In this document: positions 11,826-60,794 of the stretch, one piece after another
How positions within the stretch are numbered: position 1 is the stretch's first letter
How the letters are laid out: the number at the start of each line of letters is the position of its first letter
Assembly (NCBI RefSeq): GCF_032118995.1
Contig: NC_092652.1
Coordinates: forward strand, 26,339,044 to 26,403,043
DNA from: Asterias amurensis
Lineage: Eukaryota; Echinodermata; Asteroidea; Forcipulatida; Asteriidae
Length of the DNA: 64,000 nt
Reading direction: 5' to 3'
The notes under the pieces: generated by a model
Told to the model about the DNA's origin: nothing
The model's input: the letters and a program-made list of their open reading frames with translations, nothing else
Database searches by the model: none
Program-made: the position numbers and the translations under genes

Positions 11826-12267
11826 CCTGCCGCAGCTTCAATTAACTAACCGAAGACAAACAGGTTTTGTCTTTGAAAACAAAGTTGTGTGGTGGTTTTT
11901 AATATATCTTGAAGGAAAATTGTGATGTCTGACCATACAAATTGACAGTAAGGACATCGAATGGCCTGGACACTGGTCTGGCAAGTCACTTAACCGAATT
12001 AGGTCAGAAAACTAAATCATTTTCAAATTCACTCAAAAAATAAAAAGGTGTCCTTGGAGAATACACAGGGTGTGAAATATGGAGAAAGCACCCGTCAAAT
12101 TCGTCAAAATTTGTCCGGGACCGGGGTGCCTTTTGATTTGAGCTCACCCTGGTTTTGGCTCCCGACCTTGGGGGCTGGGACGTCGGCTAGTAGGTCTTAT
12201 CGGTCATAATTCAAACAAACTGAAATTGTTTACTGTGGACTTGAAAGTGCACTTGAAGTAACAACAA
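11826..12267. other. Intergenic stretch, nothing recognised
   Basis: No reading frame or repeat boundary stands out. It leads directly into the long microsatellite. Confidence 0.4.
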
Positions 12268-12598
12268 GTTGTTTGTTTGTTTGTTTGTTTGTTTGTTTGT
12301 TTGTTTGTTTGTTTGTTTGTTTGTTTGTTTGTTTGTTTGTTTGTTTGTTTGTTTGTTTGTTTGTTTGTTTGTTTGTTTGTTTGTTTGTTTGTTTGTTTGT
12401 TTGTTTGTTTGTTTGTTTGTTTGTTTGTTTGTTTGTTTGTTTGTTTGTTTGTTTGTTTGTTTGTTTGTTTGTTTGTTTGTTTGTTTGTTTGTTTGTTTGT
12501 TTGTTTGTTTGTTTGTTTGTTTGTTTGTTTGTTTGTTTGTTTGTTTGTTTGTTTGTTTGTTTGTTTGTTTGTTTGTTTGTTTGTTTGTTTGTTTGTTT
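12268..12598. repeat. (GTTT)n microsatellite, about 82 uninterrupted units
   Basis: About 330 bp of pure GTTT/TTTG repeat without a single interruption. All three open frames over it (Phe-Val-Cys-Leu repeats) are artefacts of the repeat. Its purity means recent expansion and strong length polymorphism, or an assembly-limited length. Confidence 0.95.
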
Positions 12599-31777: not shown

Positions 31778-32375
31778 CTTAAAGGAACTGTTACCGTACA
31801 CTTCTGGTAATTACTCAAAAGAATTGTTACATAAAAACTTCGTGGAGCTGTTGATAATATAAAACGTTGTGAGAAACGGCTCCCTCTGAAGAAGTAATAC
31901 GTTTTTTTAAGAAAGAGGTAATATCTCACTAAAATATTTGAATCTTAAAGGAACACGTTGCCTTGGATCGGACGAGTTGGTCAAAACAAAAGCCCTGTAA
32001 CCGTTTTTTATATAATGCATATGGTTGGAAAGATGTTTTAAAAGTAGAATACAATGATCCACACAAACATGCCTCGAAATTGCGTGGTTTTCCTTCTACT
32101 GTGCGAACTATCACCGTCGGCCATTTATGGGAGTCAAAATTTTGACCCCCATAAATGGCCGACGTGTTAGTCGACGAGGTAAAAGGAAAACCACGCAATT
32201 TCGAGGCATGTTTGTGTGGATCATTGTATTCTACTTTTACAACATCTTTCTACCCATATGCATTTTATAAAAAACGGTTACAAACGTTTTTCAAAGACCA
32301 ACTCGACCGATCCAAGGCAATGTGTTCCTTTAAGTAGACTTCAGGCTTGAAGCCTTCAGTGCCGTTAGAGAACGT
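31778..32375. mobile_element. MITE interrupted by a second, palindromic element
   Basis: The left part (31778-31947) is the 5' half of a common MITE through atctcactaaaatattt. The phrase that normally follows, an acttcagg...gaagcc segment, resumes at 32338 after a 385-bp palindromic element. The host copy was therefore present first. The host's right terminus is not seen beyond 32375. Confidence 0.65.
31945..32335. mobile_element. Near-perfect 390-bp palindromic (foldback) element, copy 1
   Basis: The two arms are inverse copies over about 190 bp each and meet near 32140 (catttatgggagtcaaaat / ttttgacccccataaatg). Ends are TTAAAGGAACACGTTGCCTTG and its inverse. Open frames on both strands over it mirror each other and are not genes. 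A second copy is at 48138-48528. Confidence 0.9.
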
Positions 32376-35232: not shown

Positions 35233-35507
35233 TTAGTCGTTTTTCGGGTCGTTTTTCTGGGTTTGTCTTCCTTTCTCCTTGTCGTTCACCTTCTTTTGTT
35301 TCATCCTTCGGTTCTGGAACCAGATCTTGACTTGTCTCTCCGTTAGTGTGAGGGTCTGGGCTAGTCTCGCTCTCCGGTCTCTTGTGAGATACTGATGTGA
35401 CTGAAACTCCTTCTCCAGTTCGAAGATTGTCATCTTGGAGTAGGGACGACGCTTCGTGCGTCTTGGGAGAGCGGCTAAGGTGAACATCCAGCCTGGCGGG
35501 GGACCTT
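35233..35507 (-). CDS. Hox11/13: Hox gene B exon 2 (homeodomain)
   Basis: This exon carries the linker, the homeodomain and the short basic C-terminus ([16 protein letters not shown]). The acceptor could also be six bases upstream (35513), which would insert two residues before the linker. The overlapping minus-strand frame at 35195-35536 is out of phase with the homeodomain and not real. Confidence 0.95.
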
Positions 35508-38500
35508 CTGCTCCTAATCATACAATGAAACAACATAATGTCATAATCAAATATTTTACTTTTTGAATCCTTAACTCAGGTTGCACATTATAGTAATTAC
35601 TGACTCAATTACTGACTTAATAATTTGGCTGTTTTCTCCCACTTACACTACACTGTAAAAACCGGGGTGTTAAAACTGTTACAATGGGTGTTATAAAAGA
35701 TGTTAAATTTTGCATCGGGGATAAAGAATATTAATTTTGTTTTTTACCCATACACTGTTTTTTTACAGTGGGTGTTGTCACATAGCCATCGTATGATGTT
35801 AAAATAACACAAATAAATTGTATTGGCAAAAATAAGTGTCATTTTGACACTCTGTGGTGTAAATCTTCGGTATATTTAGTGACAACACCTATATTTTGTA
35901 AATTACAATATTGCAGTTTTGCAGTGTATAGTGGTACCGCTAGAGTCTAGAGATATAACCTACCCATCCAGGGTGGGCCAAATTGTTGAGTTTCTGAGCT
36001 ACCTTTCATTAGTGTCTTCATCATGCTGTAGTAGTTATTTTGTGATTCCCAAAACTAGGTTGATTGCGCACCCTTTTAAACTTCATAAAGTTGTTTCAAA
36101 GAAACTTCCATAAGATATAACGATAACGATTTCCTTAAAGTTTGCGTCTGACTTTAAACTCTTTAATGATGATCCGTTGGAAACGTCCAATTTCCATCTA
36201 CCGGTTTTTAAACCACCCCAAAAGTACCCCTACCCCAAGCGGGGACCTTAAACTGACCCCCTCTATCCTCAAAATCTATCTTTCCCTTTATGCAATAACT
36301 TGATGACGTCATTGACTAATTACCAGACGGCAATAAATTGATCAGAGTAATGGTCACTTCTAAGAATAATTGAGGATCAGCAGGTGTTCTCATTATTACA
36401 GAGTTGCCGTTTTTAAGGTGTTACTTTTATGTATCCTGATGTCGTCTACAGGATATTCAACATAATTATTCGTAGCCATTGATCAAACATCTAAAGGAGT
36501 AGAAGGTGTTATTTATGAATGTGTGTCTTGTCTCAAAGATGCATGGATTGAAGTGAAGACCTTGTAGCAGTCAGACGCTAGACTACAAAGTCTGCTTTGC
36601 TGTTTGACATCCTTGCAGAAACTTAAACATAAAAAAACATTCAAAACAAGTCCGTATTGACCACAGATGCATTGATCATCTTGATAGTCATCATGGTTTG
36701 ATCATCTTTGTTCAGTTCCCTGTATTTGCAAAGTACATTACAAGAAACTACTATCATTATAAACAAAGTCGAGCCTCAGCCTGCCATCGTAGAGGACTAC
36801 ATGTACATCTATTTGTTTGTTGGTTTTACATCTTGAATTGCTAACTTTTTTTTTCGTTGGTTTGGAAAACTGTCAAAAGTTGTCTCGTGTTTTTCCTGTT
36901 GCATTTCAATTGTATACTTTCTAAACCATATGGTGTTTTCTTCGTTTGGTTAATTATCCATTAACTTATCATAATGGTGGCACTTCAAGCCGACATAATG
37001 TTTAGATATGTAAAAGTATGCTGCACTCTAGTTCTATCTAGCAGTATCAAAATGAAGATAAAAAAGGATGGAAACAATCACTTAAATTGTTATTTAACTA
37101 AAAGGGTACTTTCGGGTACAATAATTAACTTGTTTTAAAAATGATAAACTCGCCAAAGTTGATTTGAAATGGGACTAACTTTCTGATCTCTGTAATAAGT
37201 ACTGTAGTTAATTAATTCGTGTTGCAAGAGGAATGTTCGCTTAAAGACAGTGGACACTATTGGTAATCGTCAAAGACCAGTCTTCTCACTTGGTGTATCT
37301 CAACACATACATAAAATAACCAACCTGTGAAAATTTTAGCTCAATCGGTCACACGAAGTTGTGTGCTTTCAGATGCTTGATTTCGAGACCTCAAATTCTA
37401 AATCTGAGGTCTCTAAATCAAATTCGTAGAAAATTTACTTCTTTCTCGAAAACTATGTTACTTCAGAGGAGCCATTTCTCACAGTGTGTTATACTAACAA
37501 CAGCTCCCCATTACTCGATACCAAATAAGGTTTTATGCTAATAATTATTTTGAGTAATTGCCAATAGTGTCCACTGCCTTTAATTAAACAAAAAGTTTTG
37601 TTTACGAAGGAAAAGGGGGTTCTTTGAACTGAAATGGTTGATTGTTTTTATGTAACAGTCCATTGGGTGGACGTATCAATACTTGCATATTGTAGGAATC
37701 TTACAATCTCCTTGACCAGCACGTTAAATACCCTTCAGCAATTAGCACATGTAAGATAATGTCACACTAATTCAATTTACATGCTGAACGTGCTGTTTCA
37801 CCGCCGGACTCTGTCCTTGTTCGTGACAGCCGTCACTAGATATTCATGGGGCAAATTGGGATTCTTGACGGCGGGAAGTTGGCGCGAAAACAGAGAACCG
37901 CGGATCAAGGTTGGGACATGATTATTGAGAGAGTGATTTCGAGCACCGTATAAAAAGTACTGTCTTTCTTATAATTTGGTGGTAGTTTTGATGAGTTTCC
38001 TTTTTTGTTTGTGGGGGGGGGGGGTATTCTGTGATGTGTAGCAAATTTCGTAGTGTATTGGGGTTTTTTCAATGAAGTTTTCACCCATACAAAAAACTAA
38101 TTTCTAAATTAATGAAATTATGCTATATTTAGACAGTCAAAGCATCAAATGCATGGTGAGACAATTTTAATTTATAAAGTTTTGAAAAATGTGAGAATGA
38201 GTTGTAAGTCATGTTAAAACATCATTGTTTCAAGCAATTGGAATGATAGTATTTTACGAAAGATATTACATACACGGTTAGTGGGTAAAGAGTTGTTGGG
38301 TAAAGAGCTTATGGAACTCTGTTTATCGAGTTACATGTTGACTAACAGGTCGATTGTTTTTTGTTTGTTATTACTCCTAATGTTGTAATTAGGTTGAATG
38401 TCTGATTTCTAATTTGTCCATTACTAATGTCATGCTCAGCGCTATATAGAATATCAACATTATTAAGGCGCTATATTATTATTGGTATTATTATTATGAC

Positions 38501-41500: not shown

Positions 41501-43321
41501 TTCATATAACAATGATCATATTAATATTGATTTACAAATGTGTCCTAAAAATTGTTGATGAAAAAAGTGCAATCTCAAAGCAAACATGAGATGCAAACCT
41601 TTGATATAGACTTATTGAAACGTTGATAAAGAACGGTAAAGAACGAGTTGGCAAAGAAGAAAAACTAACTTTGGAGAGAAAAATGCGTGACTCCTCAATG
41701 TCTTTTCCCATGAGTAGCACTCGGTCAATTTGTGGACATTTTAGTTTAAATTACAAGAACTCTCTCTTTGCCATTACTCATGCTCTCATCAACATTTGAT
41801 TTTAGCGATGAATTTTGAGGATTGTTTCTAAATTTTACAACTGGTGTTCATGGCTCGATTTCATAAAGCGCTAAGATTTTATTAAGATTAGTTGTCAATA
41901 TTGCTTAGCAGTAAAGGTTGACACACAATATTAAAGGGAAGGTTTACCTTTGGTTATCACTATTAAATCTAATGGCAATACAAATCAATTGGTTATAAGT
42001 TACCTTTCGGTAGTTTAAAGCATTTTCAGTTCACTTCGAAGTAATGTGGTTATGGAAAGTGATATCAGTTTGTATCCCCCAAAAGTTAAATCTGGGAAAT
42101 GTTTCTGTCGGATGCGTTTCTCAAATTGTGTATTCCAATTACGGATAAATTCTTTCTGCGTGGACCCATATAGCCACTCCGGATTTACGGCGAGATCTCA
42201 AAAACGCTTCCACCTTTTGAAATTAAATTTGCACAAGTTAGTTTTATAGGATTATTAAAACGATCGAACGGTTCAAATAACCAGAGTTAAACCTTGCATT
42301 TGAGACAAATCTTAGCTCTAAGTTAACTGCTTGGGCATGAAAGACTATCAGCTTGCCTTATTCAGACAGACACTTGCTTGAATAAATGCTCATATCAGAT
42401 ATGTCATTGGACTGTTTTCTTTCTATAATTTTAAATTGAAAGCTTCGTTGAAATCAAACCCACTTCTTTCAAGTTATAGTAGGATTTGAAACTTTGCGTG
42501 GTATAGGTATAGCCAAAATAGCCTCCACACCATGTGAATATCTTTTGAGCAGTGTCGGCTCTGAAAAGAACTGGTGGTTAACGACTCAACGTTTCGATCG
42601 GTATGCTCTGATCGTCCTCAGGAGATTGCATCGTTCATGTTTCTTCAAAGATTTACAGAGTGATGCTTTAGATACCTCGGAGGATAGCTTACATGGATCA
42701 ATCACAAGAAACTTCAGCAATGTCCCCCAATGCTATTCTTCTCAAGCATAAGACGTTGATTTGTGCTTATCTTTAAGCTTAACAACTTATATTAAGCTTA
42801 CCTGAAATGCCGAAAGGATAACTTGGGTTAGCACAGCTTGGATAGTTGAGGCACGAGAGATGTTGCTGGGTAGCATGGTGGTTACTTGCCCCGTACATCA
42901 CTGCAGCAGCACTGCCCACCGAACCAGAGTATCTCATCGGGCTTGTAAAGTCCATCCGATGATGACTGGAATCATGCCCAGTGGATAGCTCCATACTGTT
43001 GAAGGAAAGAGCTGCCGCTGTAGCAGAGGTCCGGTAGCTCTTGTACTGTTCATCGTAGGAGGCAGACGGAGGAGGGACAGCCCCGGGTTGAACGAAGCGA
43101 CAGTCGGCACGAGTGTAAGTGGCAAAACCGCCCGGTCCGGACACCGGGGAGTGATGCAGGTGGGCGTTGGATGTTGACGGGCCGCGATCGATAGTTCCCG
43201 GTACCTGCATGAAGCCCGTACCGACCCCGGCAGACCGGTTTGGGGAGTAGCCACCACCGCCGCCACCTGAGGCGGTCATGGAGCAAGGTTTGCCCCCGAA
43301 AGCTTGCGTGACTGTCTCCAT
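35233..43321 (-). CDS. Hox11/13: Posterior Hox protein (Hox11/13 type), gene B, complete, two exons
   Basis: Two exons, 43321-42802 and 35507-35233, join in phase 1 to give 264 residues. The donor is tca-g|gtaagctt and the acceptor is a doubled gattag-gagcag. The start chosen, [10 protein letters not shown], has A at -3 and G at +4; an in-frame ATG at 43378 in poorer context would add 19 residues. The N-terminal half is rich in Gly, Ser, Tyr and Ala with no YPWM hexapeptide, as usual in posterior Hox proteins. The homeodomain (35463-35284) begins [20 protein letters not shown] and holds [10 protein letters not shown]; only about 18 residues follow it. It is about 47/60 identical to gene A's homeodomain. 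It is transcribed toward gene A, with a non-Hox gene next on its other side, which would fit the terminal member 11/13c, with A as an inverted 11/13b. This letter is inference. Confidence 0.95.
37241..37582. mobile_element. MITE, TTAAAGACAGTGG family, in the Hox B intron
   Basis: Ends TTAAAGACAGTGGACACTAT and its inverse with CCTTTAA. Internal orientation is opposite to the copy at 4877. Confidence 0.85.
38921..39300. mobile_element. MITE, TTAAAGGCACTGGACAC subfamily, in the Hox B intron
   Basis: Starts gtaaaggcactggacac and ends gtgtccagtgtctttaa. The interior has the usual gagaaacggctccctctga segment but lost the tttgaggtctcg palindrome. Confidence 0.8.
42802..43321 (-). CDS. Hox11/13: Hox gene B exon 1 (N-terminal region)
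   Basis: 520 nt, 173 codons plus one base. It codes a Gly-run (seven residues near position 23), then Ser/His/Tyr-rich low-complexity sequence, ending NPSYPFGIS before the donor. Base composition is clearly GC-richer than the flanks, as expected for a first exon. Confidence 0.9.
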
Positions 43322-43788
43322 GATTAAATCACTTGATGATGGTGTCCTCGTAGAAGTACAAAATAGATCATAAAACATGTGGGAAAGGGAACGAAGTGTC
43401 ACAACTCTAGACGGAGATTATCACTCGCACAAAATCCTTCAAAATGTACCGTTTCTGTTCTAAGACCTCAGGCTAAAATTCAGATCCTAAAACATGCAAA
43501 ATCAGCCAGAAATTGTGTGATATTTTGGATGCATCGCCTGAAGACAAAAACTGTCTTCTTTTTAGTGCTGGATTAAGGTCAGAATCGGTTGTAAATTCTA
43601 GTGCTAATGATACTCATGTTTCAGCGCTGAGGTTGCCTGACGGTCTTTGGCGGTGAATCGTTTTATCAAGGTGTCGATTGTGAGTTTACGGCCATCGTTT
43701 GATGCAACTTTATGGTCTCACATTGGAACTCAAAGTGCAGACGACATCGCCCTCCGGAATTGGCACAGCAGGTCGGTGCTCTTTGCTC

Positions 43789-46620: not shown

Positions 46621-48137
46621 GCAGATAAATTTGCTGCACATTTTGTGCGAAGCAAAACGCAGCGAGATACCACTAACAACAGTCAAGCATTGTGCATTAT
46701 GACATGGTACCTGACTGGAAACCTTATTATGGTACCTTTGGCAGAAGAAGCTGATGATAGACAGAGGTAGCTTTGTCATCGATTAGCAAAATTTGATTGA
46801 ATCGATTTACCAATACTCTATCAATAATCTGTGTGTGTAACCTTTGTATAGATATTGATTCGTTGAAAAGACGTCTTCATTTAGAGTGATTGAATGTACT
46901 GTTTTGCAATGATACACGTGTGCAACAGCAATCACCACATAATAACAACCAACTTGCATAACTACATAAAAGTATAAGCCAACTTCCAGCAGTAAATAAT
47001 GCCCAGACGAGCTTCGTACGTGACTTATTCAAACCGGCCGGCCATAACCGTTAAAACACGCATCAACCAGGGGGTAAATGGCCCAACAACTTCGCTCAAG
47101 GACCTTCTCCTCGGACTCTCAGTAACCAGACTGTTTGATAACTTTCCGGAAGATATTCTTCTCTTCTTCTGAGAATGTTTCAAGTTTTATTCTTAAGCCA
47201 CACACGCGGTCAGCGCAGGTGTTGTCTGATGTTTCCGAAGACCGTGCCTCTGTCCATGTTGGTTAGGGGATGTTTTGGGCGTTAACTCCCGGGCTGGATT
47301 GAGGGTCGTAACTCTTGATGGTCAGTTATAATCTTGGTCAGTTTCTGTCTTTGGTGTTATTGCCACCTGTGCTTCGCCTATCATTTTGTATTCCCGCTTA
47401 GCAGAAACAACTGCTTGTAATAATATATGTATTTCCGCTATAAAATGAAAAATATCAAATATTCTGCGTACAAGTGGTTAAATAAAAATTATGAATATAC
47501 TGATGATTAGCAAAATGATCTCATTGTATTTAAACCGCATACATGCGTTCATGACTGCATAACATTGGTATGATTGAAAATAGTTTGAGATCCCCAAAAT
47601 CTTATGTTTGTATAAAAACAGTGACGTTGGTTTTCACTATTTCCCCGTGACTCCACTAACTGAGCTTAAACTTTCACATGTGGGGGTTTGTGTTTGTAAT
47701 CACAAAAGTTCGACTACGTGCATGTACATGGTCGTTAGAAAGTTACAAAGGTTGGCCGCATGAGTGCGCTTTCAAAGAGGGACTATATTATTTATTCCTA
47801 ATTTATCATCAATGTTTTATTTAGCTTCGATAATAACGCAATATTTACACAGCATTAAGACTGACATATTATTACATACAATTAAATTAAAAAGAAAAAA
47901 TACAAAAAGTGTAGTTGTTTCTTTTGAAGGAACAATTCTGATTTTAAGTTAAACACATAGATTGGTAAATTCTTAAAATGTTAATGACCATGAAACATAC
48001 TTTGTAAAATGTCCCTTGTTGATAGAAACTATTTTGGGAAAAAGGATTTCGATAATTCTCACCCCAAAACAATTGAATCTGCTTAACAAACTCATGCATG
48101 AGTCGTTTCTCATATTTCTGATGGACTGTCTTTGACT
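46621..48137. other. Intergenic 1.5 kb, no gene
   Basis: AT-rich, no supportable exon or RNA gene. This is the 3' flank of the convergently placed palindromic MITE and the receptor gene. Confidence 0.4.
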
Positions 48138-48528
48138 TAAAGGAACACGTTGCCTTGAATCGGTCGATTTGGTCTTTGAAAAGCGTTTGTAACCGTTTGT
48201 TTTAAAATGCATATGGTTAGAAAGATGTTTTAAAAGTATAGAATACAACGATCCACACACATTTGCCTCGAAATTGCGTGGTTTTCCTTTTACTCTGCGA
48301 ACTAACACGGTCGGCCATTTATGGGAGTTTAAAATTTGACTCCCATAATGGCCGACCGTGTTTGTCGACGAGGTAAAAGGAAAACCACGAAATTTCGAGT
48401 GATACTTGTGTGGATCATTATATTTTACTTTTCAAATATCTTTTTAATCATGTGCATTTTTATAACAAACGGTTACATACGCTTTTCAAAGACAAACTCG
48501 ACCGATCCAAGGCAACGTGTTCCTTTAA
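48138..48528. mobile_element. Near-perfect palindromic (foldback) element, copy 2
   Basis: Same arms and ends as 31945-32335 (ttaaaggaacacgttgcc...gtgttcctttaa), meeting near 48335. TTAA stands at both outer ends. It lies 287 bp downstream of the receptor stop codon and could fall in its 3' UTR. Confidence 0.9.
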
Positions 48529-48814
48529 ATAATTGTACATAATTTTGTTATTATCCTTCTTTCACCAATATGGAAATAAATGTTGATTGAATTTAATTGA
48601 ATTGAAATACTGCCGCAAGAGATGTGGTTGGTACCCGTTGTCACCTATGCGACGTCCGTGACATTTTGTTTTTTTGCTGTAATAAAAATAATTATTCAGC
48701 CAAAACTTTCAAAATATGTGACTTTTACTGTATCTTTCTTTACAGTTTTGCAACAAAAAATCAGCAGCGCTTTGACAAAAATCAATCTGAGACCCTACCT
48801 TTTAACCGTTAAAC

Positions 48815-51527
48815 TTAATCTAGAAGTAGAGGCGGCATAGGCGGGGGAGGAGGAGGCGGTGGTATAAAGCCAGTCGGTGCGGGAGTGTCGCCAGGCGGTA
48901 CAGGTGACGAGGAAGCCGCTATGGGAAGTGATTGTTCTGTAGGGGCTTCCGTACTTCCCAGGGGAGGAGGGGCTACGGGAGGTTGGACATCATCAGATGT
49001 AGGCGGGGGCGGAGGAGGAAAAGAGGGGCCGCTGGACGTCGGTGCAGCAGGGATGCGAGTCGACGACGTACGATGCATGGTTAACGTGGATGATTTCGTT
49101 ACATTGAGACTTCCAGAAGGAGGAGGAGGCGGAGTCTGAAAGGGAGGGGCTGCTGTAAAAGAGGGGTGCAGTGGTGGAGGAGGTGGAGCATTGGAAGCCA
49201 CATCCTGGGCAGTGGGCGTTGTTTGACTCACCCTCCTTAGCACGTCCTTAACCGACACTGATGATATCGCTGCAAGGTTGGGAGCGATTGGCGTAGAAGC
49301 AGCTGAGGGAGCAGTGCTAGGAGACCCTTGAAGATGGTGAGGTATTGATTGCTGAGATGACATACTTGACATGTGATGAGAAGATGCCGCAAGAGACTCT
49401 CGTCTTAGTCGTTGCTGCTTGAAGGGATTCATGGGTCTACCAGAAGGGCTTGTTGTGAAATGTGAAGACCCCCGTGCCAGTTGTGGCTCATCGGCAGACA
49501 AAACAGACTTCTGCAATGACATGGTGCTTGAGGGTGGCTCTTGTACAATGTTACTATCTAAGAGGTTCTCATTGTGGGAACTTGGAGGTGTTTGAATGCT
49601 TGACTGATTCTGTTGGGATGTATCTCCAGGAGGTTGTACATGAGCATGGGGGTCTCCGTAGACGTCAGGCTCACTACTTCTTGGAGTAGCTTGACGGCTT
49701 TGTCTGCTCTGGACCTGGTCTTCCCTGACACTTTCTGATGTTGAAGAAGGAATGAGGGGAGGGACTGCGTTTGAGAACATTGATGATGCTTTGGGCAAAG
49801 AAGGACCGATTGATCTCTGAGAGGTTAGACTGGCGACTGAAAGGGGAGAAGGCTTCGGACTAGCTCTGGTTAAAGAATGATAAGATGCTGTCAAAGCTGG
49901 CACAGAGCTTCCGCGTGTTGGAGTCACTGGTTTGGACGACCTAGCGGAATGTGAACTCGCTTGTCTCGGCACTCGAGGGATCTCTGGTACAAAGTTCTCT
50001 AGTTTTACTTCCGAGTTGGAATATAAATCCGCGAGTTCAGGAAGCATGTTTGAGGATTTCGGTAGGTGGGAGCTACTTCTGCTCATGGATCTCGGAATGT
50101 CTTCTCTGGGGAATAGATTGTCTCTCTCGGAGACGAAACTCTCAATTTCTACTTCTGAGTCGGAATCTACAGGTTCAGGAAGCACAGTTGAGGATATCGG
50201 CGGGCGAGGCTTTATACTACTCCCAGATCTGATAATGTCTTCTCTGGACAAAGGTTGTTCTCGGGGGTTCTCGATTTCAAACTCAGAATCTGAGTCTGAG
50301 AGATCAACAGGTGCGAAAGAAGATCTCGACATGTAGGACTTACTTGATTTCTGTCCGACCTCTCTAGGTGGGAGAGAAACTTGTTCAGCTGAGTAATGTT
50401 TGATTTCAATTTCACTGTCAGATTCGGAAAGATCAGGTGGCCCTGTGTGAGATCCTCTGGGAAAGGATCCACTGACGGGAGCTTGAAGAGAAGAGGGACT
50501 TATGCTTCTCGACCGTGGACTCTCTGGTTCAGAAGAGCTCGGGGATCGTTGTGTCCTGAATGGCGAAGAGGTTGTCCTGGCGTCCATGGAGATTAGAGAC
50601 GGACTGATGGGTTGAGCCGGTCGATGGTCGGTTGATGAAGACCTCGGGACTAAACTGGCATTCGAAAGCTGTGGTAAGAACCTTTGTAATGCGTGGACGT
50701 CCTCCCTGTGAAACTGTTGATAAGATGGTGATTGGGGCTGGCTTTGATGAAGTGACTCCCTTGGTAGACTGTATAGATGCGAGGATTGCCTTGAAGGGGT
50801 TGATGCTTCTTGATACTGGTGTGGATGGGGCATGGTTGGTTCGTCATAAGCGGGGTGGACGTGCTGTACCGAGTGGTGCGATGAGCGTGGATGATCAATC
50901 GAAACCCAAGAATGTCTTGGTGTCAGTTTAACCTCGACAGATGTCTTGTGTTCCGGAAGGTAGTGTGGCACTATTAGTTCGTCATTCACTGAGTGATGCG
51001 CTGAGTGATACAAAGATTCAGGTTGGTCAATCTGAACCAAGTCGAAGGTGATTCGCGATTGGGCATGGCCATCAATCGGTTCACTGGTGATTCGCCTTCC
51101 TCGATCTGCATACTGGATTCCGGACGTGGTTGGCCCTGGCTCGGAAACAGAATCATCACTTGCAAATGATATAAGTACATCCCTCCTCTTAGTGGAATCG
51201 TCCAGCTCGTCTTCATCATCACCGTCATCACTATGGCTGGGTTCCTGACGTATCACTTTCAAACTATCCGGCTTCTCCTTGTCATCAGCAGCTGACTGGT
51301 CAACAAAAGTGGTTGTGCGATATATCTGTGATTGTATATCTTCGTCACTCGACGTTTCATCGAGGAGTCTGGCTGACTCCCTCTTTTTACGTACTGCCCG
51401 GGTCCGGGAGGTGTCACTTTTCTCCGACTCTGTTTCTGTCGATTCCTCTTCGGTTTCGGAGTCTATGATCGCTACAAGTTCGTGCTCTTCGGCCATTTTC
51501 TTTCTGCTTTGTTTGCCCAGGGCCGGT
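48815..51527 (-). CDS. Receptor exon 11: ~900-residue disordered cytoplasmic tail
   Basis: One 2.7-kb exon coding a Ser/Pro-rich tail. First, an acidic stretch after a VAIID motif (tail residues 8-30, counted from the internal Met at 51496). Then basic/acidic blocks, three YxxP sites (YDEP 217, YSLP 242, YGDP 613), and four acidic repeats of the SDSE[IFV]E type near 355, 398, 443 and 490. The last 130 residues carry polyproline: PPPPPLHP, TPPPPPSG, SFPPPPPPTSDD (826-836) and an eight-Pro run near the end. It could be read as an independent gene from the ATG at 51496, but the upstream acceptor (taacag at 51528) and matching phase favour splicing to the TM exon. Confidence 0.85.
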
Positions 51528-53755
51528 CTGTTAATTGGATTACAACAAGGTTACATTGTTTTAATACAGATGAACAAACCATACACACAGCCGGCCTCAA
51601 CTAGAAAATTCATAAATCCTTAATTGATAAAGGTTTCAACGGTCTTCACGAAAGCTTTTTATAATGTAATACAATTTAATTAAAATCACTTGACACCGTT
51701 TGTTATTACTCAAAAAACTAGTAGCATTGATTACGAGCAATATAGAGAGATGTTGATAGTTTTAAAATATTGTTTTTTCTTTCATTGTTCCCTTGAAATG
51801 CTTCGTAATGGTCATCTCTCTTCCAGCTATTTCAAATGGGTAAATGTGGAATGTTCTTCCTCTTCATATTCAACGGTTCATCGAATTTCAATCGGTCAGT
51901 CTTTCCAAGTCTTTTTGTGAAATGTGTACGCAATAGACCTTTATCACTGTGAGGTCATTTTGATTTTACTCCATTCCAACTCATTGTAACCAAACTGAGG
52001 CTGAACGAAATAATAGTCTGGTGCCATGCGCAATGAATGTTAGCATTCATTACTGGGTGGAAACAGGGAACATGACCAAGATGGCGACAACGTGATAAAG
52101 GTCTATAACATGAAGTAAAGGACACAGTTTAGTTTGTGTACGATGTCGTAAGGCAGTCGCTTTGCAAACCGGTTTTTCTATGATTAAATTGAGTTGTTTG
52201 TTTGTAAAATATGCAGCCACCTACCTACGCAGCCAACACAACAGTAGAGCCACTGCAATGAGCACCGAGAATACGCCTCCAACCATAAGAACAGCTACGA
52301 AAGATTTCACTGCAAACGCAAAACAGAAAATGGGAAACATACTTTTAGGATGTGAAACTATGCAAAGTGGATGTATACAAAAAGGTTTGCGGTCATGTGA
52401 ATACATGAATATCACTTTTGGACAAGTGTTGGTTCCCTACCACCGGTTCTTTCAAGAATCAACTCTTTTCAACAGAGATATTGACATGATGTTACCGCAA
52501 ACCTCAAAATCTCTTTTAAGAAACGTATTTGCTAAGAAATGATAAGTTTTGTCACTTTCATCAAACAAACTCCGTAGCTCTCTAGTCTCACAAACAAGCA
52601 CTTATAAAATAAGTACTTGTGTAAGGTTGTAAACACACAAAGGGCAATGTATCTGCATGCTCTGTATAGGGCGCTAAACAAACGGCGCTAGTGAAACGTT
52701 AAGCAGGCACAATATTGTCACAATATTAAATGAACTATTTTCCTTTATTAATAAGTCGTGAAACGTACATTATACAGGTCAGTATGCTTCGTTTTTGAGA
52801 GGTCAATGCCACCAAGTTAAAGGGCACCTTATGAGGAAATTGTAAAACTTCTACTGGAGCATTTCAATGGCACCAAAACAATGACCATCGCCTTCGTTAC
52901 CTCTTTCAATAATCAGGCATAATTCAAGGGCAGAAATATATGATTATACCTAGACATTGCTTTGGAGATGTTGAACCGGTCGTGATTGTGAATTGATTGG
53001 GTGGACACGGTGAGCAGTCCCCGGCACCGTATGACGTCTGGTACGTCCCGACCGGGCACTGAGAACATTCCACCCCGTCAATCCTGCTGTAGAGTCCCGG
53101 TCCGCAGGCAACTACGAGATGGAATAAAAAAGAAACTCATCGTCAAGAAAAAAAAATACCTACAAATAAAACAAATTCTCTCTTTTCATGTTTCAGATTC
53201 GGATGTTCTGATGCAAAGCTTTCGATTTGAGGGACTCTAATAAACTTACCGCATAGAGACGAGTGTAGACCATATCCCAGACTACAGTGATACTGTAGAG
53301 AGTGTTCTACCGAGGCAGGGATCAGACCAGCCGTAACTCGTTGGTACATCCCATTCGAGTTCTGCGGAGTGAAGAAGGCTGCTAGCTTGGTTTGAATCTA
53401 CAAAAGGATCGTCATGAACAAGACACAATATGTGAATATTATTTACTAATTAAAAAATATTTAGATTTGAATTTGTTTGTTGATTTTGTACGGGTATTCA
53501 GCTTGAATTATTCTTTGAACTTTGTATTGTTATTAATCAAACTTTACAAACGGCTTTTATTAAAATAAATACAGAAAAAAACAGCTATACAGCAGGTCCT
53601 TGTGGCGCAATCGGTTAGTACGTTCGGCTGTTAACTGAAAGGTTGGTGGTTCAAATCCACCCAGAGACGAAACTTTTATTGTTTTATATTAATCAAACTC
53701 TACGAACGGCTTTTATTAAAACAAATACAGAAAAACAGCTATACAGCACGTCTCT

Positions 53756-53808
<53 letters not shown>

Positions 53809-53925
53809 ATCCACCCAGGGACGGAGTTATTCTTTTAACTGTTATTGTTCAAAATTAATAAAACTTTACGAAAGGCTTGTATAAAAACAAAGTTACAGAA
53901 AATAACATCTATACAGCAAGTCTCT

Positions 53926-53978
<53 letters not shown>

Positions 53979-56315
53979 ATCCACCCAGGGACGGAGGTTT
54001 TCTTTTCGTCTTTTTGCTTTCATTTCAACGAAAACTTACAGTGCAGTTCTACTTGCTATAAGTGAGGAGTGAACTATGAGAGGAGAATGGGGAGTTTTTT
54101 CATTTGTTCACAATTTCTCTTAATGCTGGTGCATTCTGCTTCTTTTTTTTCTTTGGGGAGGGGGGGGGGGGGGCTATTTTTCAATTGACATGCCTCCCTC
54201 CCCTCTCCCCTCCCCAACTCACCAGTGCCATTCTCTGATCCATTTCTCCAATCATGCAACTCGAGCTGCATTCTGCGATCATCTCATGCCTGACCACGAG
54301 GTCAAATTTGACCAATAGGATAGTACCATGGGTAGATCTGGCAACTGACCCCGGCACGCCCCCAACACAGAGAGCGACTAAGTTTGAGATTTGGAAAGAG
54401 ACATCAATTGCAATGATGGCGGACTGGAGATGTGTTCCGAGCTGTTGCTTGAAGACGCTACTCTGTTGGGCGTTGCAGTCTGGCGTGGTGAACGAAGCTG
54501 ATATAGTGTAGACAAGGTCTGGGAGGGTGTACACTGAAATAATGAGAGCAGATTTGGAAGTTGAACAAAGAGAGAAATTTACTAACTGAGGACTCGAACC
54601 AATGACCGGATTAACGTGCCGGCACTCTACCAACTGCTAGCCCTATAATGGCGGTCTCCTTGTTTTGTCAAAATTCAGGTTTTCAGGCAGAAGCCATACA
54701 ACCGTGAAGTTGCCAGGGATCACGCCCAAATTACGCTACAACCTGGGAGTCACCAGTGAAATATTAAGAGTTTCAAATACCACTTTTAGACTCGGTTGTT
54801 ACAGAACAGTTTGTGAACTTTGGGTCGACTCGTCATGGCTTCAAACATGGCACTGGATTGTCGTCATGGTTGTCAGGATCACGGCCTGATGGATTGTTCT
54901 TCTTTTAATATTTTTCGAAAAGCAACGAACATAAAATGCTTATTTCAAAACGGGGTTGTGGTAACACATTTCTTCTTATAAGATCATATAATATAAAGAC
55001 CTGAGCTGCACATAACTGTTTATTAAATTGACATTGGATTAAGTTTTCAATGTATTTGGCACCAAGCTTTTCCATGACTCTTATAATCCGCAGTGGAAAC
55101 CTATTACGACACATCACATTTTAATTTATCAAACTCAAACCCATTTTAATGGTGGACACAATACTGTGAAATTTAATTTGTCCGGTTACACTCAAACCAA
55201 ACAATGCACTTTGGTCCACCATACCACAAGAAGGCTAATTTATTCAAACGCTTACCTTCGATATTATATTTGAACGTTCGCTTTCTTTCATTCCCTTTCT
55301 CTGGATATTTGAAAGACACCTCACACTCCAAACTCCCTGTATCGACAGGGTCAACATTCGATATTTCTAGAATTCCTCCGTCAATTGTTAAATATCTAGC
55401 ATGATCAAACGTCATGATGACGTCGTCGCCTTTAGACTTCGGTCTTCGCCATGTGAATTTGAGACCAATAATTGATTTCCTCATGTGTGCCACGTTGCTA
55501 GGCAGGCATGCGAGGTATTGCGTTCTTCCTTGCAAAACGTACGTGAAATCTGTAACAAAATATAAAAATATAAAAAACACATGGGAGATTAAATTTTGCT
55601 CTGGTGTCGTTTCAGTTATGGTCTGGAACTAGTTTGAATATTTCTTTTACTTGCCATCTTTTGTTCTACTTTTCGCTACAGTTTTAGATTTATATTTAAT
55701 GTAATGTACATCAAGTTGATAATGAGCAAGGTCTGGGAGGTCACATCTTTTTTGATGACAATTTTTCGACTTTTGCCTTTCCCTGGACGGCCTCTACTTG
55801 TATAGTTATTGCATTGCCAAGAGTTAAATAGAAAAATAAAAAACTCTTATTGAGGCTTAAATGTCTCCGTGATGAAGACATCATGTGTGAGTAATACTTG
55901 AAAAACGTGAAAAGGGTTCGACCAAGAACCAAAAAACGTAAATTTGATTGTAAAAAGCGCCCTATACGCCTCTTTTAATATGTTTGCATGAGGCACGTCA
56001 CAATGCTAACTCAAAACGAGGCGATGGGCGCAGCCACTGCAAGTGATGGGGGACGTGCGCCCATAGCCACGTTTTGGGTAAAAATTATGACGTCATGCAT
56101 AAATATTAAGAGAGGCGTATACGCTTTCAGCAATCACATCATGGTAGCAACGCAAGATCGATAGACAGTTTAGTTTAATTTCAGATATTTGTTCCTATAT
56201 GCTATGATAGGATTAAGTGCAATAACTTTTGCTTCTATTGTTTTAGTTCTAATCGGCGTCATATAGGAGATCCCCCCCAACTTTAAGAAAAACAACAGCT
56301 ACACAGAAAGTCTCT

Positions 56316-56368
<53 letters not shown>

Positions 56369-56550
56369 ATCCACCCAGGGACGGAAAATTGTTTTGAACT
56401 CAAGATCGAGCGACGTTTTAGTTCAATTTCAGAAGAACATTTTGAGCTATTATTGTTTGATATGAATAACTTCTTCTGCGAGCCGCTATTTTGAACATTT
56501 ACACACACAAAACTGAAAATAGATAGCAAGTCTCTGTGGCGCAATCGGTC

Positions 56551-56588
<38 letters not shown>

Positions 56589-59500
56589 ATCCACCCAGGG
56601 ACGGGATAGTGTTTTAACTAAAGATCGAGCGGAATTTTAGTTTGATTTCAGTTGTTTTCAGCAATTTCAAAACTTGTGATTATATTGTGTTCCCTCTCTG
56701 CCCGATGTCACATGGTACTCTGTTCAAATGATTCTGTCTCATTGTAAGTACGGAAGTTAGTGTTTCATTGAAATCAATGGCATTGAAGGTTTTTTTTATT
56801 TTATGACGATGTCACCATCTTGGTCATGTTCCCTGATCCAACAACAGTAATTGGCTCTAATTTTATTGTACAAAAAGGAACCAGACTAATTCTCCTTCCA
56901 GCCTCAGTTTGGTTACATTGATTTGAATGGGTGAAAATCAAGATGACCGCACCATGATAAAGGTCAATTATCAGCAGACATACCTCCATCATTTTGAAAT
57001 GTATGTAACATCTCATCGATATCTACAGGTGGAATCTCTAAATCGGCTACTGCACTATCATTCCCTGAAGGTCTGTCGAACTTCGGTTCCTCATGGAAAG
57101 GGTCGTCAGTGACTGTCCATATATTGAAATAAGAAACATACAACTGTGTATTAAATCCATGTCACAAGAAGCAATTTACTGGCAACCAGTTCCAGGCAAT
57201 CTTCAAGAAGAAAACAAACATTCACGCTTTCATCGTCTCTTCACATTAATTGTCTTGGGTGCTGCCGAAGTTTTCCTTTTGCGTGTAGTTAAGTTGCTTG
57301 CCCACAAGTTGTCTTAAACAAAATATTTTTGTGGGAAATGATTTCTTTCTCGAAAATTTCGTTACTTCAGATTCAGATTACCTTGATAAGTCTTTTTAGC
57401 CTTTGCTTTTCAAAGTGTTTCTCTGTGAAGCGCCTTAAGACCTCTCCGAAAGTTTTAAACGCTGATCAAACTCGCAATTTTAATCTTGCTACAAAAGTGC
57501 CACAAGAGGGCGGAATAACTCTTTATTTTACCGTATTCTTCATCATGGTGAGGCTTCAGAATTTCCACTGCGGCAGATGATTTCTCGTCCTCAACGGCTA
57601 TTTCAGTCATTATGGAAATGAATAATTAGAAGTTGTTACACATTGAACAATATTGTACACAGCATGAGAAGAGTATTCAATCTTATATTAATACATTGCA
57701 CAAGGTAAGGTTCCCGCCGAAAAATGTTCCTTTGTTTTTGCGCATCATGGATCTTTTTAAGTAATGGTTATCAAGTCTTGATTGGTTGAAACTCTAGTCT
57801 GTGTATTGTCGCCGACATAGGGCGTAATATCGACTGGCTCGGAGTGAGTTTTGGCAAGTCTGGCAATTAAATTTTGGTTCGAAGCGAGTTTAAAAAAAAA
57901 AAAAAAACGTAATCAGATGTTTGCTTGATACAGATAATACCTTCTTTAGTAATTCGCGTTGATATCGTCGACTACTTGTTATTAAAACGAACTTTCACAA
58001 CCAAGACCCGTTGTGAGCTCTTCAGGGATCCACCTGTTTTTGTTTTTTTAAGCACATTTTTCTGATTTTATATCACACTGCAATCCAAAAACGTTAAGCA
58101 AAAACAGTTTCAACTGATCTCGTTTTTACCTTTCCCAAGCTGAAATCTTCGTCCTGCCACGAAAAAGTGTTTGTCGTTGTATGCATCACACACGTAAATC
58201 CCAGCATCATTAACTGGATTGTAATGTTCTATGATCAAAGTTGTAGCAGTTGGGTCAATGTAGACGTAACTAGGTAAAGATGGACTTCCTTCTTTCGCCC
58301 AATCGTACTCAGCATCAACACCCGGCACCCCGACGATCATGTAGTTTTGGGTATGGATTACCACTTTTCCGCCTGGAGGGGGCTCCTTTAGAACTGTTTC
58401 AAGAAACAATGATTAACCTAACTTAAATGTTGCAGTAAAATTACAAATAAATTAGTTCCCTATGCCAAGATTCAGTTAACGTAGTTTAGCCCTTTATTTC
58501 CTAAGGGTTCTGGTGGTACTGGTATTTTTTTGTTTACTAGTTGTAAATTAACTGCGTTTTTTTTATTAATTGTTTGCATCACAAAACATTGGAGTTGTTA
58601 ACAAGTGTTACACTTGGATTCGAGTCCGTATCGTGTCCGTTTTAGCATCGACTTGTGACTTGACTGGACTTGCAAATAATAAATGTATTCTTGAATTGAA
58701 TTGAATTGAAATCATGACTCGCTGCAAACTGTGCAAAAACAATCCATGTTGTTAATATTTAGGCTACTAAAGGTTTCTTTAGACGTACTTCAACACGAAG
58801 TCAAGACTATGCACTGTATGCATTTATCTGGTTTAAAATCAATTTATGTGAATTGAGTCGTTTGAACATAAGTTACATTTGGACATTTTCTATTCCTGAA
58901 TTCATGTCTTGAGTTCTTTATATCAAAATGTGGACATTCTGTAACCCGATAATCTAAGATGTAAACCAGTTTTGTAAAGCGTCCTGAATTGTTGAACTTT
59001 TGTCAGTAATTTTTCTTAAAAGCCAACAGGCATGAAAGAAATCCCCGTCACATTTTGTACACACAGATTCCCACTGCATCATGCAGCTGCCATGCAGCTG
59101 CCGAACCCTCAGACCAATCAAAACACAGGTTGGAAAGCTAACGTCACTGCACGTTTATCCAATGAAATCACAGTATCACATGAAATCACTGCTGATGTCA
59201 AACCAGTACAAGTCTTTATTCTTGCAGAAAAAGGGGAACCAGTCTTTAAGACACTGGACACTATTGGTAATTTTCAAAGACCAGTCTTCACAGTTTGTGT
59301 ATCTCAACATTTTGTTAAACATAACATAACAAACCTGTGAAAATTTGAGCTCAATCGGTCGTCGAAGGTCCGAGATATTTATTTATGAAAGAAAAAAACA
59401 CCCTTGTCGCACCTTGGTCACACGAAGTTGTGTGCTTTCAGATGCTTGATTTTGGGACCTCAAATTCTAAATCTGAGGTCTCAAATCAAAATCGTGGAAA

Positions 59501-60794
59501 ATTACTTCTTTCTCGAAAACTACGTCACTTCAGAGGGAGCTGTTTCTCACAATGTTTTATACCATCAACCTCTTCTTAGTCCTATTTATCCCCATTAGTC
59601 GTAATCAAGAAAGGTTTAATGCTAAAAGTTATTTTGAGTAATTACCAATAGTGTACACTCTCCATCCGAGGATGTTTGAGGGCGCAATTTTAAAATTACT
59701 TACCTACTGGTAAACCCTCAACAACAAAATTCAGTTGAACTCTTCCCTGACCACTTCCAACAGTGGCCTTAAAACTGTTCCTAAAGACGTCATAATCTAA
59801 TAAATCCAAGATGGTCAGTGAAGTCCGGTTTGGGGACAGAATCATGTTAACAGGAGGGCTCCCTCCTTTGAGCAGATCCACTACTTTCAGAAGGAGTCGA
59901 TTCTTCATCTTGACCCGTCTGTACCACGAGATGGGTGGTAGTTGGTTCGAGTCCAACTCGGCCTCGGAATCCGGTGTTATATGCAGATTAAGAGTTACCA
60001 TCCTGCCAACGATAGACTGAATGAAGCAGGTGTTGGTCCTCGACTTGTATAAAAAGCAGGTTTTATCTTGATCCTTGATGTTTACTTGCCAGCCTGGAGA
60101 GAATACAAAGAGGTTACTCAGTTTGAAATCATCAAAAGATTCACAAGAGTGCGTGCGGCCAGTGGGTGCTCTAAAATATTAAGTTGCACTTGACAACATT
60201 TAAAAAGTGAAATTTAAATTGTCAAAGTTAAATTTAACATTGTTGGAAGTCTTTTCAATCAAGTGAACTTTCTTTGCAAAGAATATACTCATAATCATTC
60301 ACTGCACTGTCTCCAGGTCTAGTAATGCTGAATTTAACACTTGGTTTTATAACAACAATCCTTATGATGGGTTTACGGTCGCGGTACTTTCCAGACAAAT
60401 CAAAAGACCGTGGCTATTTACTAAAAAAGACGAAAACATTCTGATAGAACGTGACAATTAAAGAGCTACGATTATCGCAGCTCTTTCGTTTTACCGTCTG
60501 ACATTTTTTTTTAAATGAGCTGCAACTGCTGATGAAATTATACACAACTATACTATCCTTCTTTATGTTAACGTCATAATAAAGACTGGAGTAAACATCC
60601 GGACCTTACACTACAGTTACGTGGTGCCGAAATGTTTAAATAGATCAACCTTCCAGTTTTCCCCTCTCACCTAAGTTTATCTTACCTTTTGCTCTTTCGG
60701 AAGATAACAAAACGAAGATGAAGATTACACGAAATAAAAGGAACACAATATCAGCGTTTCCTTGGAGTTGTCGATGTTGCCTCTTGAATAGCAT
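48815..60794 (-). CDS. Novel single-pass receptor: Ig x3, SCUBE/SEA-like, GCC2/GCC3, TM, ~900-residue disordered tail
   Basis: I assembled eleven exons: 60794-60686, 60093-59704, 58393-58130, 57597-57532, 57112-56984, 55549-55256, 54533-54223, 53397-53250, 53111-52950, 52309-52225, 51527-48815. Every junction is GT-AG; phases are 1,1,1,1,1,1,0,1,1,2 and the frame stays open for 1,556 residues. Order: signal peptide (1-36), Ig1 (37-167), Ig2 (167-255), acidic linker (255-320), Ig3 (320-418), SCUBE/SEA-like region (418-571), GCC2/GCC3 module (571-625), TM (627-650), basic stop-transfer (RRPALGKQSRKK), disordered tail to 1556. Seen: domains and splice sites. Known: Ig and GCC2/GCC3 modules are extracellular adhesion or receptor modules. 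Inferred: a cell-surface receptor linking to actin. I do not recognise the family. The weakest link is exon 10 to 11, but its phase matches and the joined basic residues fit. Five tRNA-Asn genes sit antisense in introns 5 and 7. Confidence 0.85.
52225..52309 (-). CDS. Receptor exon 10: transmembrane helix
   Basis: VAVLMVGGVFSVLIAVALLL, about 22 hydrophobic residues with small-residue GG and ALLL motifs, then CWLR. The donor at cgtag|gtaggt leaves phase 2, matching exon 11. Without splicing, the frame meets a stop immediately. Confidence 0.85.
52806..52922 (-). repeat. Dispersed repeat, 'gcctg...cttcacgg' family, inverted copy
   Basis: Reads in reverse the core found at 583, 4332 and 20507 (gggcaccttatgagg, ggagcatttcaatggcacc). 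In intron 9 of the receptor. Confidence 0.55.
52950..53111 (-). CDS. Receptor exon 9: GCC2/GCC3 (ephrin-receptor-like) module
   Basis: The cysteine pattern ACGPGLYS...ECSQCPVGTYQTSYGAGDCSPCPPNQFTI...QC is the classic GCC2/GCC3 repeat, with CPVGTYQ as its hallmark. A single module lies just outside the membrane. Confidence 0.92.
   Translation of the reverse strand: MPADRDSTAGLTGWNVLSARSGRTRRHTVPGTAHRVHPINSQSRPVQHLQSNV
53250..53397 (-). CDS. Receptor exon 8: SCUBE/SEA-like region, part 2
   Basis: Codes IQTKLAAFF through LQYHCSLGYGLHSSLC. The ending YxCxxGY..x..C resembles the last strand that leads into GCC2/GCC3 modules. Acceptor tttgtag, donor gcg|gtaagt. Confidence 0.75.
53596..53669 (+). 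tRNA. tRNA-Asn(GTT), degenerate copy
   Basis: The same 74-nt layout as the next copies with anticodon GTT, but with changes that break the acceptor (position 4) and D stem (gtac for gcgc). It is probably a pseudogene. It lies in intron 7 of the receptor, on the opposite strand. Confidence 0.75.
53750..53823 (+). tRNA. tRNA-Asn(GTT)
   Basis: Acceptor GTCTCTG pairs with CAGGGAC, D arm GCGC...GCGC, anticodon loop CTGTTAA (GTT), T arm GGTGG-TTCAAAT-CCACC, discriminator G. All stems pair. T-rich sequence follows as a possible Pol III stop. Confidence 0.95.
53920..53993 (+). tRNA. tRNA-Asn(GTT)
   Basis: Identical in sequence to the copy at 53750. Followed by gaggttttctttt, a good Pol III terminator. 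Confidence 0.95.
54223..54533 (-). CDS. Receptor exon 7: SCUBE/SEA-like region, part 1
   Basis: The exon begins VYTLPDLVYTISASFTTPDC and holds five cysteines. A YxIxxxFTTPDC opening and a hydrophobic-alternating body ahead of a GCC2/GCC3 module resemble the spacer of SCUBE-type and related deuterostome proteins, which often show a SEA-like fold. Donor ctg|gtgagt ends in phase 0, the only such junction. Confidence 0.75.
54575..54645 (-). repeat. tRNA-derived relic, minus strand
   Basis: On the minus strand: gttggtagagtgccggcacg and a B-box GGTTCGAGTCC. No stable acceptor stem. It sits in intron 6 of the receptor. Confidence 0.5.
55256..55549 (-). CDS. Receptor exon 6: canonical Ig domain 3
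   Basis: LACLPS, FTWRRPK and DTGSLECEVSF give the normal Cys-Trp-Cys Ig signature over 98 residues. This is the only Ig of the three with both cysteines. It is followed by a basic NERKRTFKYNIE strand. Confidence 0.92.
55963..56121. mobile_element. 159-bp palindromic element, copy 1
   Basis: Ends tatacgcctctttt and its inverse; inner gatgggcgca...gcgcccatag also pairs, so the whole element is one long hairpin. A near-copy is at 61514-61671. It lies in intron 5, between tRNA-bearing stretches. Confidence 0.85.
56310..56383 (+). tRNA. tRNA-Asn(GTT)
   Basis: Same sequence as the 53750 copy; in intron 5 of the receptor, antisense to it. Confidence 0.95.
56530..56603 (+). tRNA. tRNA-Asn(GTT)
   Basis: Differs from the other intact copies by one D-loop base (ggtc for ggtt). 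All stems pair. Followed by gatagtgtttta. Confidence 0.93.
56984..57112 (-). CDS. Receptor exon 5: acidic linker
   Basis: 129 nt, phase 1 to 1, coding an acidic hinge without cysteines (includes VADLEIPPVDIDEMLHTFQ). Acceptor tggacag, donor ggag|gtatgt. Exons 4 and 5 could be skipped without loss of frame, because all flanking introns are phase 1. Confidence 0.65.
57532..57597 (-). CDS. Receptor exon 4: short acidic linker
   Basis: A 66-nt microexon, both ends phase 1, coding AVEDEKSSAAVEILKPHHDEEY. Acceptor gaaatag and donor acg|gtaaaata. It is supported only by phase and open frame, so it is less certain than its neighbours. Confidence 0.6.
58130..58393 (-). CDS. Receptor exon 3: Ig domain 2 with one canonical cysteine
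   Basis: The strand-F motif DAGIYVCDAY and the core Trp (EYDWAKEG) are clear. The first cysteine, expected 11-14 residues before the Trp, is replaced (around YMIVGVPG), leaving a lone Cys. Confidence 0.9.
59244..59663. mobile_element. MITE, TTAAAGACACTGGACAC family, in receptor intron 2
   Basis: Starts tttaagacactggacac and ends ttaccaatagtgtacac. The far terminus is degraded. Its overlapping open frames are MITE artefacts. Confidence 0.75.
59704..60093 (-). CDS. Receptor exon 2: degenerate Ig domain 1
   Basis: The Ig framework is recognisable by VTLNLHI, ISWYRR and SLTILDLLDYDVF. At both canonical cysteine positions other residues stand (Leu in VTLNL, Ala in FKATVG). Two cysteines near the start (CFLYKSRTNTC) may form a different bond. 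One N-glycosylation site (NRT) is present. Confidence 0.8.
60686..60794 (-). CDS. Receptor exon 1: signal peptide
   Basis: Starts MLFKRQHRQLQ, then a hydrophobic core VFLLFRVIFIFVLL and a polar SSERAK end: a typical secretory signal peptide, a little long. Two earlier ATGs (60836-region and 60812-region) are followed at once by stops. The donor is aaag|gtaaga. Confidence 0.8.

Follow-up and report, generated by a model that had tools for sequence, protein, structure and literature searches.

The question raised by this locus is whether the chain of open frames on the minus strand of the window (the whole 64,000-nucleotide stretch of Asterias amurensis DNA that was analysed, C5:26339044-26403043) encodes one membrane protein or two separate products, and to which family, if any, its extracellular part is related. 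A sequence-only reading had joined eleven exons in correct phase into a 1,556-residue receptor with three Ig domains, a SCUBE/SEA-like part, a GCC2/GCC3 module, a transmembrane segment and a 900-residue tail, and had recognized no named family in this combination. Translation of the spliced exons, running from 60794 to 48815 on the minus strand, bore out the chain: all eleven exons have GT..AG borders and join in phase (outgoing phases 1,1,1,1,1,1,0,1,1,2), and the spliced coding sequence of 4,671 nt makes up 1,556 codons plus a single stop, which is terminal. The exons are as follows, "ZPBP-like" anticipating the comparison with ZPBP/Sp38 given below:

60686..60794, minus strand: exon 1, which carries the start codon and, at aa 14-32, a hydrophobic signal sequence
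59704..60093, minus strand: exon 2 (aa 37-167), read earlier as Ig1; no Pfam match, putative Ig
58130..58393, minus strand: exon 3, Ig2 (aa 167-255); Ig_3 0.0053 alone, below cut-off
57532..57597, minus strand: exon 4, acidic linker; weak splice sites, phase-neutral, inclusion uncertain
56984..57112, minus strand: exon 5, acidic linker; phase-neutral
55256..55549, minus strand: exon 6 (aa 320-418), Ig3, which supplies the Ig of the ZPBP-like unit
54223..54533, minus strand: exon 7, part one of the ZPBP-like middle domain, read earlier as SEA-like (aa 418-521)
53250..53397, minus strand: exon 8 (aa 522-571), part two of the middle domain, then the Cys-rich end beginning with C..GYG
52950..53111, minus strand: exon 9, GCC2/GCC3 (Ephrin_rec_like); PF07699 6.6e-12
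52225..52309, minus strand: exon 10, transmembrane helix (aa 631-649, at 52292-52236)
48815..51527, minus strand: exon 11, basic start and Ser/Pro-rich tail of about 900 residues; no Pfam domain

To assess coding potential, the tail and two Hox frames served as the training set for a codon score that penalises stops, and 3,000 same-length intron pieces supplied the background. For exons 2-9 the modelled frame scored best and was equalled by at most 0.1% of the 3,000 intron pieces; the score of exon 1 was equalled by 3.9% of them, and that of exon 10 by 15.6%, another frame being equally good, which is not significant. Splice sites were scored with general splice matrices, each being ranked against every AG or GT of the gene. 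By this ranking introns 3 and 4 have poor acceptors (62% and 36% of the AGs, respectively, score as well), and intron 9 has a poor donor (22% of GTs). Because exons 2-6 are all symmetric (1-1), phase does not test for exons 4 and 5, whose inclusion is uncertain.

Hydrophobic stretches were strong at aa 14-32 and aa 631-649, and weaker at 456, within the ectodomain. The stretch at aa 631-649 is followed by basic residues. The tail frame runs for 911 codons without a stop; its 903 residues past the join comprise 18.9% Ser and 13.7% Pro, with no Cys and one Trp. It matched no Pfam family and is probably disordered. Two features were located in it:

49898..50437, minus strand: four diverged repeats (aa 1017-1196) around S[DN]SE[IFV][EK][IL], spaced 43, 43 and 48 aa apart
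48839..49186, minus strand: poly-proline tail end (aa 1434-1549), with proline runs 5-8 residues long and a single FPPPP

The repeat motif was picked after inspection, and 0/20,000 shuffles had two copies of it; no repeat pairs were found when the tail was compared with itself by BLASTP, nor DNA-level repeats in the tail by TRF. Proline runs and FPPPP suit profilin, SH3 and EVH1 partners. At the start of the tail, a SUMO-motif-like LVAIID lies ahead of an acidic run, and basic stretches are present.

That the tail and the ectodomain form one protein is likely, given the good donor, the fitting phase, the basic residues after the helix and the lack of an AATAAA in the gap. The in-phase tail join and its basic stop-transfer sequence, which had been held to argue against two genes, are indeed present, but neither alone excludes them. 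It is possible, though rather doubtful, that a ZPBP-like membrane protein ends after the helix or in another last exon and that the tail is a separate single-exon gene, whose product from the ATG at 51496 would be a soluble, acidic, proline-rich protein; the LVAIID motif and the basic stretches are features that a soluble nuclear protein could have as well. This ATG (51494..51496, minus strand), ten codons from the start of the tail exon, stands in a strong context, with an A at -3 and a G at +4. Were intron 10 retained, a stop codon would stand directly at its donor, after ...CWLRR, but this donor (52225) is the best GT between 52450 and 51530 and falls within the top 1.5% of the gene, and phase 2 fits. 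The acceptor at 51527 is mediocre, 22% of the AGs in the gene being as good and five better ones lying within intron 10; against a gene boundary, however, only ATTAAA, at 51680 and 51565, occurs between helix and tail, in a gap that is A+T-rich (GC 0.34-0.41).

When the assembled protein was searched with domain profiles, the GCC2/GCC3 match was clear, Ig matches stayed below cut-off and a faint match to PF20626 appeared. PF07699 (GCC2/GCC3) covered aa 576-623 of the ectodomain at 6.6e-12 (45.5 bits vs a cut-off of 23.1), which establishes the module that had been proposed. As to the three Ig domains, Ig2 and Ig3 were matched below cut-off only, the best stretches being aa 195-239 (Ig_3) and aa 379-407 (V-set), with Ig_3 reaching 27.4 bits on the ectodomain vs a cut-off of 30; exon 2, taken for the first Ig, matched no Pfam family. 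The SCUBE label has to be dropped, since Pfam found no CUB or EGF-repeat match in the 653-aa ectodomain, where the sole EGF-named match was EGF_Sp38_C, below cut-off. SCUBE is a GCC2/GCC3 family; it is absent from the list of best solved-structure matches by sequence. NCBIfam gave no match. Both the gene model and the architecture in outline (exon chain, GCC2/GCC3, hydrophobic helix and tail frame) are upheld.

Because PF20626 is the C-terminal domain of ZPBP, its faint match prompted a comparison of aa 320-625 with the zona-pellucida-binding proteins ZPBP1 and ZPBP2. The two sequences were typed in, and Pfam confirmed them as Sp38 (6.4e-50 to 6.1e-27 over two domains). With this typed pair, hhalign gave a probability of 97.6% over 260 columns at 27% identity, and the typed-pair profile scored 57.2 bits on the whole unit; plain shuffles reached at most 8.7 bits and Cys-fixed ones at most 10.7 (5,000 of each). 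Taken by parts, the middle scored 20.2 bits on the piece and 17.7 on the unit (best unit shuffle 9.2), and the Cys-rich end 18.3 and 14.3 bits (best unit shuffle 13.0), while the Ig profile, at 6.0 bits on the unit vs a best shuffle of 10.2, was not significant. In 5,817 frames, four N loci being excluded, the typed-pair middle-domain profile matched only exon 7 at E<0.01, in four overlapping loci.

A profile search with the three-row alignment scored 7,995 candidates and returned 171 proteins at E<=1, of which 120 were listed. All of these 120 carry PF07354, PF20626 or both, and there is no invertebrate name among the named proteins of the 120. The database profile (120 ZPBP1 alone) scored 30.8 bits on the starfish unit, the maxima in 10,000 shuffles being 7.0 (plain) and 13.7 (Cys-fixed), and hhalign gave a probability of 96.7% at 28% identity over 243 columns. 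With this profile, Ig3 reached 1.6 bits vs a best shuffle of 8.4 (Ig2 was higher, 3.2), the middle 10.2 bits when scored as a separate piece but 8.2 inside the whole unit (vs at most 8.9 in Cys-fixed shuffles), and the Cys-rich end likewise 13.0 and 7.4 bits (vs at most 14.3 in shuffles); for the middle piece by itself hhalign gave a probability of 7.4%. Since the single parts are weak or marginal with the database profile, it is the whole colinear unit that carries the ZPBP claim. That the score fell from 57 to 31 bits may reflect the composition of the database profile, with its 120 mostly land-vertebrate ZPBP1 sequences and no ZPBP2. In BLASTP, the alignment with the database ZPBP1 protein P0001 covers 92% of the starfish unit at 22% identity; for the 120 listed ZPBPs coverage ranged from 15 to 92%, and one had no BLASTP match. 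The Cys pattern and the landmarks C..GYG, C..C and YGA..C are in register with ZPBP, and the first half of the GCC2/GCC3 module in exon 9 aligns with the ZPBP C-terminal EGF-like domain.

PF07354 (Sp38 N-terminal Ig) had no match at E<=10 in Ig3 or the ectodomain, and PF20626 (ZPBP C-terminal EGF-like) scored 12.5, 15.7 or 17.7 bits, according to which piece was searched, short of its cut-off of 24; as both cut-offs are missed, the starfish protein is not classed as a ZPBP member. To this extent the verdict of no named family stands, but Ig3, the SEA-like part and the first GCC2/GCC3 half do match ZPBP/Sp38. Judged by sequence comparison, aa 325-604 are ZPBP/Sp38-related and homologous as a whole, and within reach of the searches made here the architecture would be a new form of ZPBP-related protein. 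It is very improbable that the protein is an ordinary Ig and GCC2/GCC3 receptor unrelated to ZPBP, alike through common Ig and Cys-rich patterns: the marginal or non-significant single parts with database profiles, and unrelated frames elsewhere that score as high or higher on ZPBP C-terminal models, would fit this, but the whole-unit score lies far above 10,000 shuffles, half of them Cys-fixed, and the colinear match spans the middle domain, where Pfam matched no family.

As a description of fold, SEA-like is a reasonable term for the middle domain. The model of ZPBP1 P0001 (34-sequence alignment, mean pLDDT 64.5, pLDDT <50 from residue 300 and the C-terminal end unmodelled) shows an Ig at about 61-166, a strand at 168-178, a helix at 185-205, strands at 207-221 and 225-238, a helix at 255-272 and two short strands. 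SEA-like folds follow a beta-alpha-beta-beta-alpha-beta order; the model shows strand-helix-strand-strand-helix at 168-272, but the SEA profile of Pfam found no match in the starfish ectodomain. The middle domain probably has a SEA-like strand-helix order. Starfish exon 7 folded alone had a pLDDT of 41.8 and was unusable. Foldseek with the ZPBP1 model placed the dystroglycan complex 1st, protocadherin-15 28th and cadherin-23 36th, with TM-scores of 0.14-0.29 for these rows; in the Foldseek and VIA rows mainly the Ig domain was aligned, and no SEA-titled entry occurs among the matches listed, which is uninformative.

Searches for relatives covered the protein database, the starfish genome and the literature. 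Neither the whole 1,556 aa (7,978 candidates) nor aa 320-653 (1,738 candidates) had a match in the protein database, which contains vertebrate ZPBPs; this is uninformative as the echinoderm content was uncontrolled. Across the genome, PF20626 gave six matches, none over cut-off, and PF07354 six, one over cut-off (on contig C17, 23.6 bits); the present locus is in neither set. The C17 match sits in a frame read as leucine-rich repeats and was rejected as a ZPBP. Another locus, L003, scored 20.7 bits with the typed-pair C-terminal profile vs 15.3 for the gene's own exon; in the 10 kb upstream of it no match to the middle or Ig profile exceeds 6.0 bits, and it was taken as chance, although introns may be longer. 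A search of the genome with the ZPBP2 protein returned nothing, not even the present locus, so that a further starfish ZPBP may exist. Exons 7-9 gave 51 listed genome matches, three of them their own; no other covers the exon 7 part, and the remaining ones are GCC-module matches. For Ikaros, a neighbour of ZPBP in vertebrates, a linkage query with a finger returned 222 matches to C2H2 genes over many contigs and was uninformative. No echinoderm ZPBP appears in the titles or abstract openings of the literature on ZPBP with invertebrates, sea urchin and echinoderms.

For the locus as a whole, the best explanation, to which we give somewhat better than an even chance, is a single-pass type I protein with a ZPBP/Sp38-related membrane-near ectodomain, a helix and a 900-residue tail. 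One or two more Ig-like domains and the acidic linker would lie N-terminal to the ZPBP-like unit, whose Cys-rich end would be part of a complete GCC2/GCC3 module. The protein may be displayed on the sperm surface or the acrosomal membrane, the ectodomain could bind the egg coat or an acrosomal-matrix glycoprotein, and the proline-rich end might recruit profilin, EVH1 or SH3 proteins, coupling adhesion to actin. Because a ZPBP-like ectodomain, a membrane helix and a proline-rich tail occur together, the simplest reading would be an adhesion receptor linking egg-coat contact to actin; the sperm role is inferred, and somatic roles are equally conceivable. Mammalian ZPBP1 matters for fertility: it is described as located in acrosomal membranes and matrix and termed a secondary zona-binding receptor, and knock-out mice are described as infertile (PMC7827414). 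In sea urchin sperm, actin is described as being polymerised into the acrosomal process (PMC9563080). A membrane-bound starfish relative would root the ZPBP family outside vertebrates, would suggest that the ZPBP Cys-rich end is a GCC2/GCC3 module, and would be a candidate sperm-side receptor in starfish fertilisation. A further-reaching proposal, which we consider unlikely, is that the starfish protein represents an ancestral-type ZPBP, an egg-coat-gripping sperm receptor whose proline-rich tail directs acrosomal-process actin; vertebrate ZPBPs would then have arisen from it by reduction and stayed on Hox-bearing chromosomes, and the ZPBP "EGF" would be a shortened GCC2/GCC3 module.

A distance of 5.4 kb separates the gene from a frame on the minus strand (42779-43417) that was read by eye as exon 1 of a posterior Hox gene with its homeobox at 35236-35517 (-). 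A second homeobox in the window, likewise named by eye, at 6081-6521 (+), is the only plus-strand one of four homeobox frames found over 264 kb, 60 kb of it masked or unchecked, which suggests that part of the posterior Hox cluster has been inverted locally. Past the high end of the window, two frames at about 53 to 59 kb are read as zeta-COP exons; on that side 122 of the 194 frames of the nearest 60 kb were scanned, and one matches the clathrin-adaptor small-chain family (1.1e-9). Vertebrate COPZ and ZPBP genes are presumably also on Hox-bearing chromosomes. A nanos-like zinc-finger frame (by eye; L039, C5:26301638-26302255, plus strand) lies amid posterior Hox genes about 37 kb before the window. 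Within the gene itself, five tRNA-Asn (GTT) genes lie within 53596-56603 on the opposite strand (+); intron 7 harbours three of them and intron 5 the other two. Just past the tail stop codon, a long near-palindromic stretch (48140-48530) is perhaps a mobile-element relic. The translated frames 47973-48431 and 31929-32249 resemble each other, and a long tetranucleotide array at 12204-12636 is open in all six frames (NKQT or LFVC repeats).

Among known systems, Ig receptors (RAGE, IL-1R) occupy most of the top Foldseek rows of the ZPBP1 model, and the membrane-near modules of dystroglycan and of cadherin-23/protocadherin-15 show at most a likeness of arrangement to it. The best solved structures by sequence are Mastigoneme-like protein, ELAPOR1 and thyroglobulin (7.5e-8 to 1.3e-4), which like the starfish protein carry a PF07699-type module; in the starfish, by comparison, the module is single-copy and membrane-adjacent. 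With ZPBP1 and ZPBP2 (Sp38, IAM38) the starfish protein shares the order Ig, middle, Cys-rich end, the length of the unit and the Cys landmarks. However, the 120 listed ZPBPs are 258-485 aa long, compared with 1,556 aa in the starfish, and P0001 stops at the Cys-rich end, without a full GCC2/GCC3 module, membrane helix, tail or extra Ig-like exons. Relative to ZPBP, the starfish protein has in addition two more N-terminal exons (one Ig-like), a complete GCC2/GCC3 module, a helix and a 900-residue tail.
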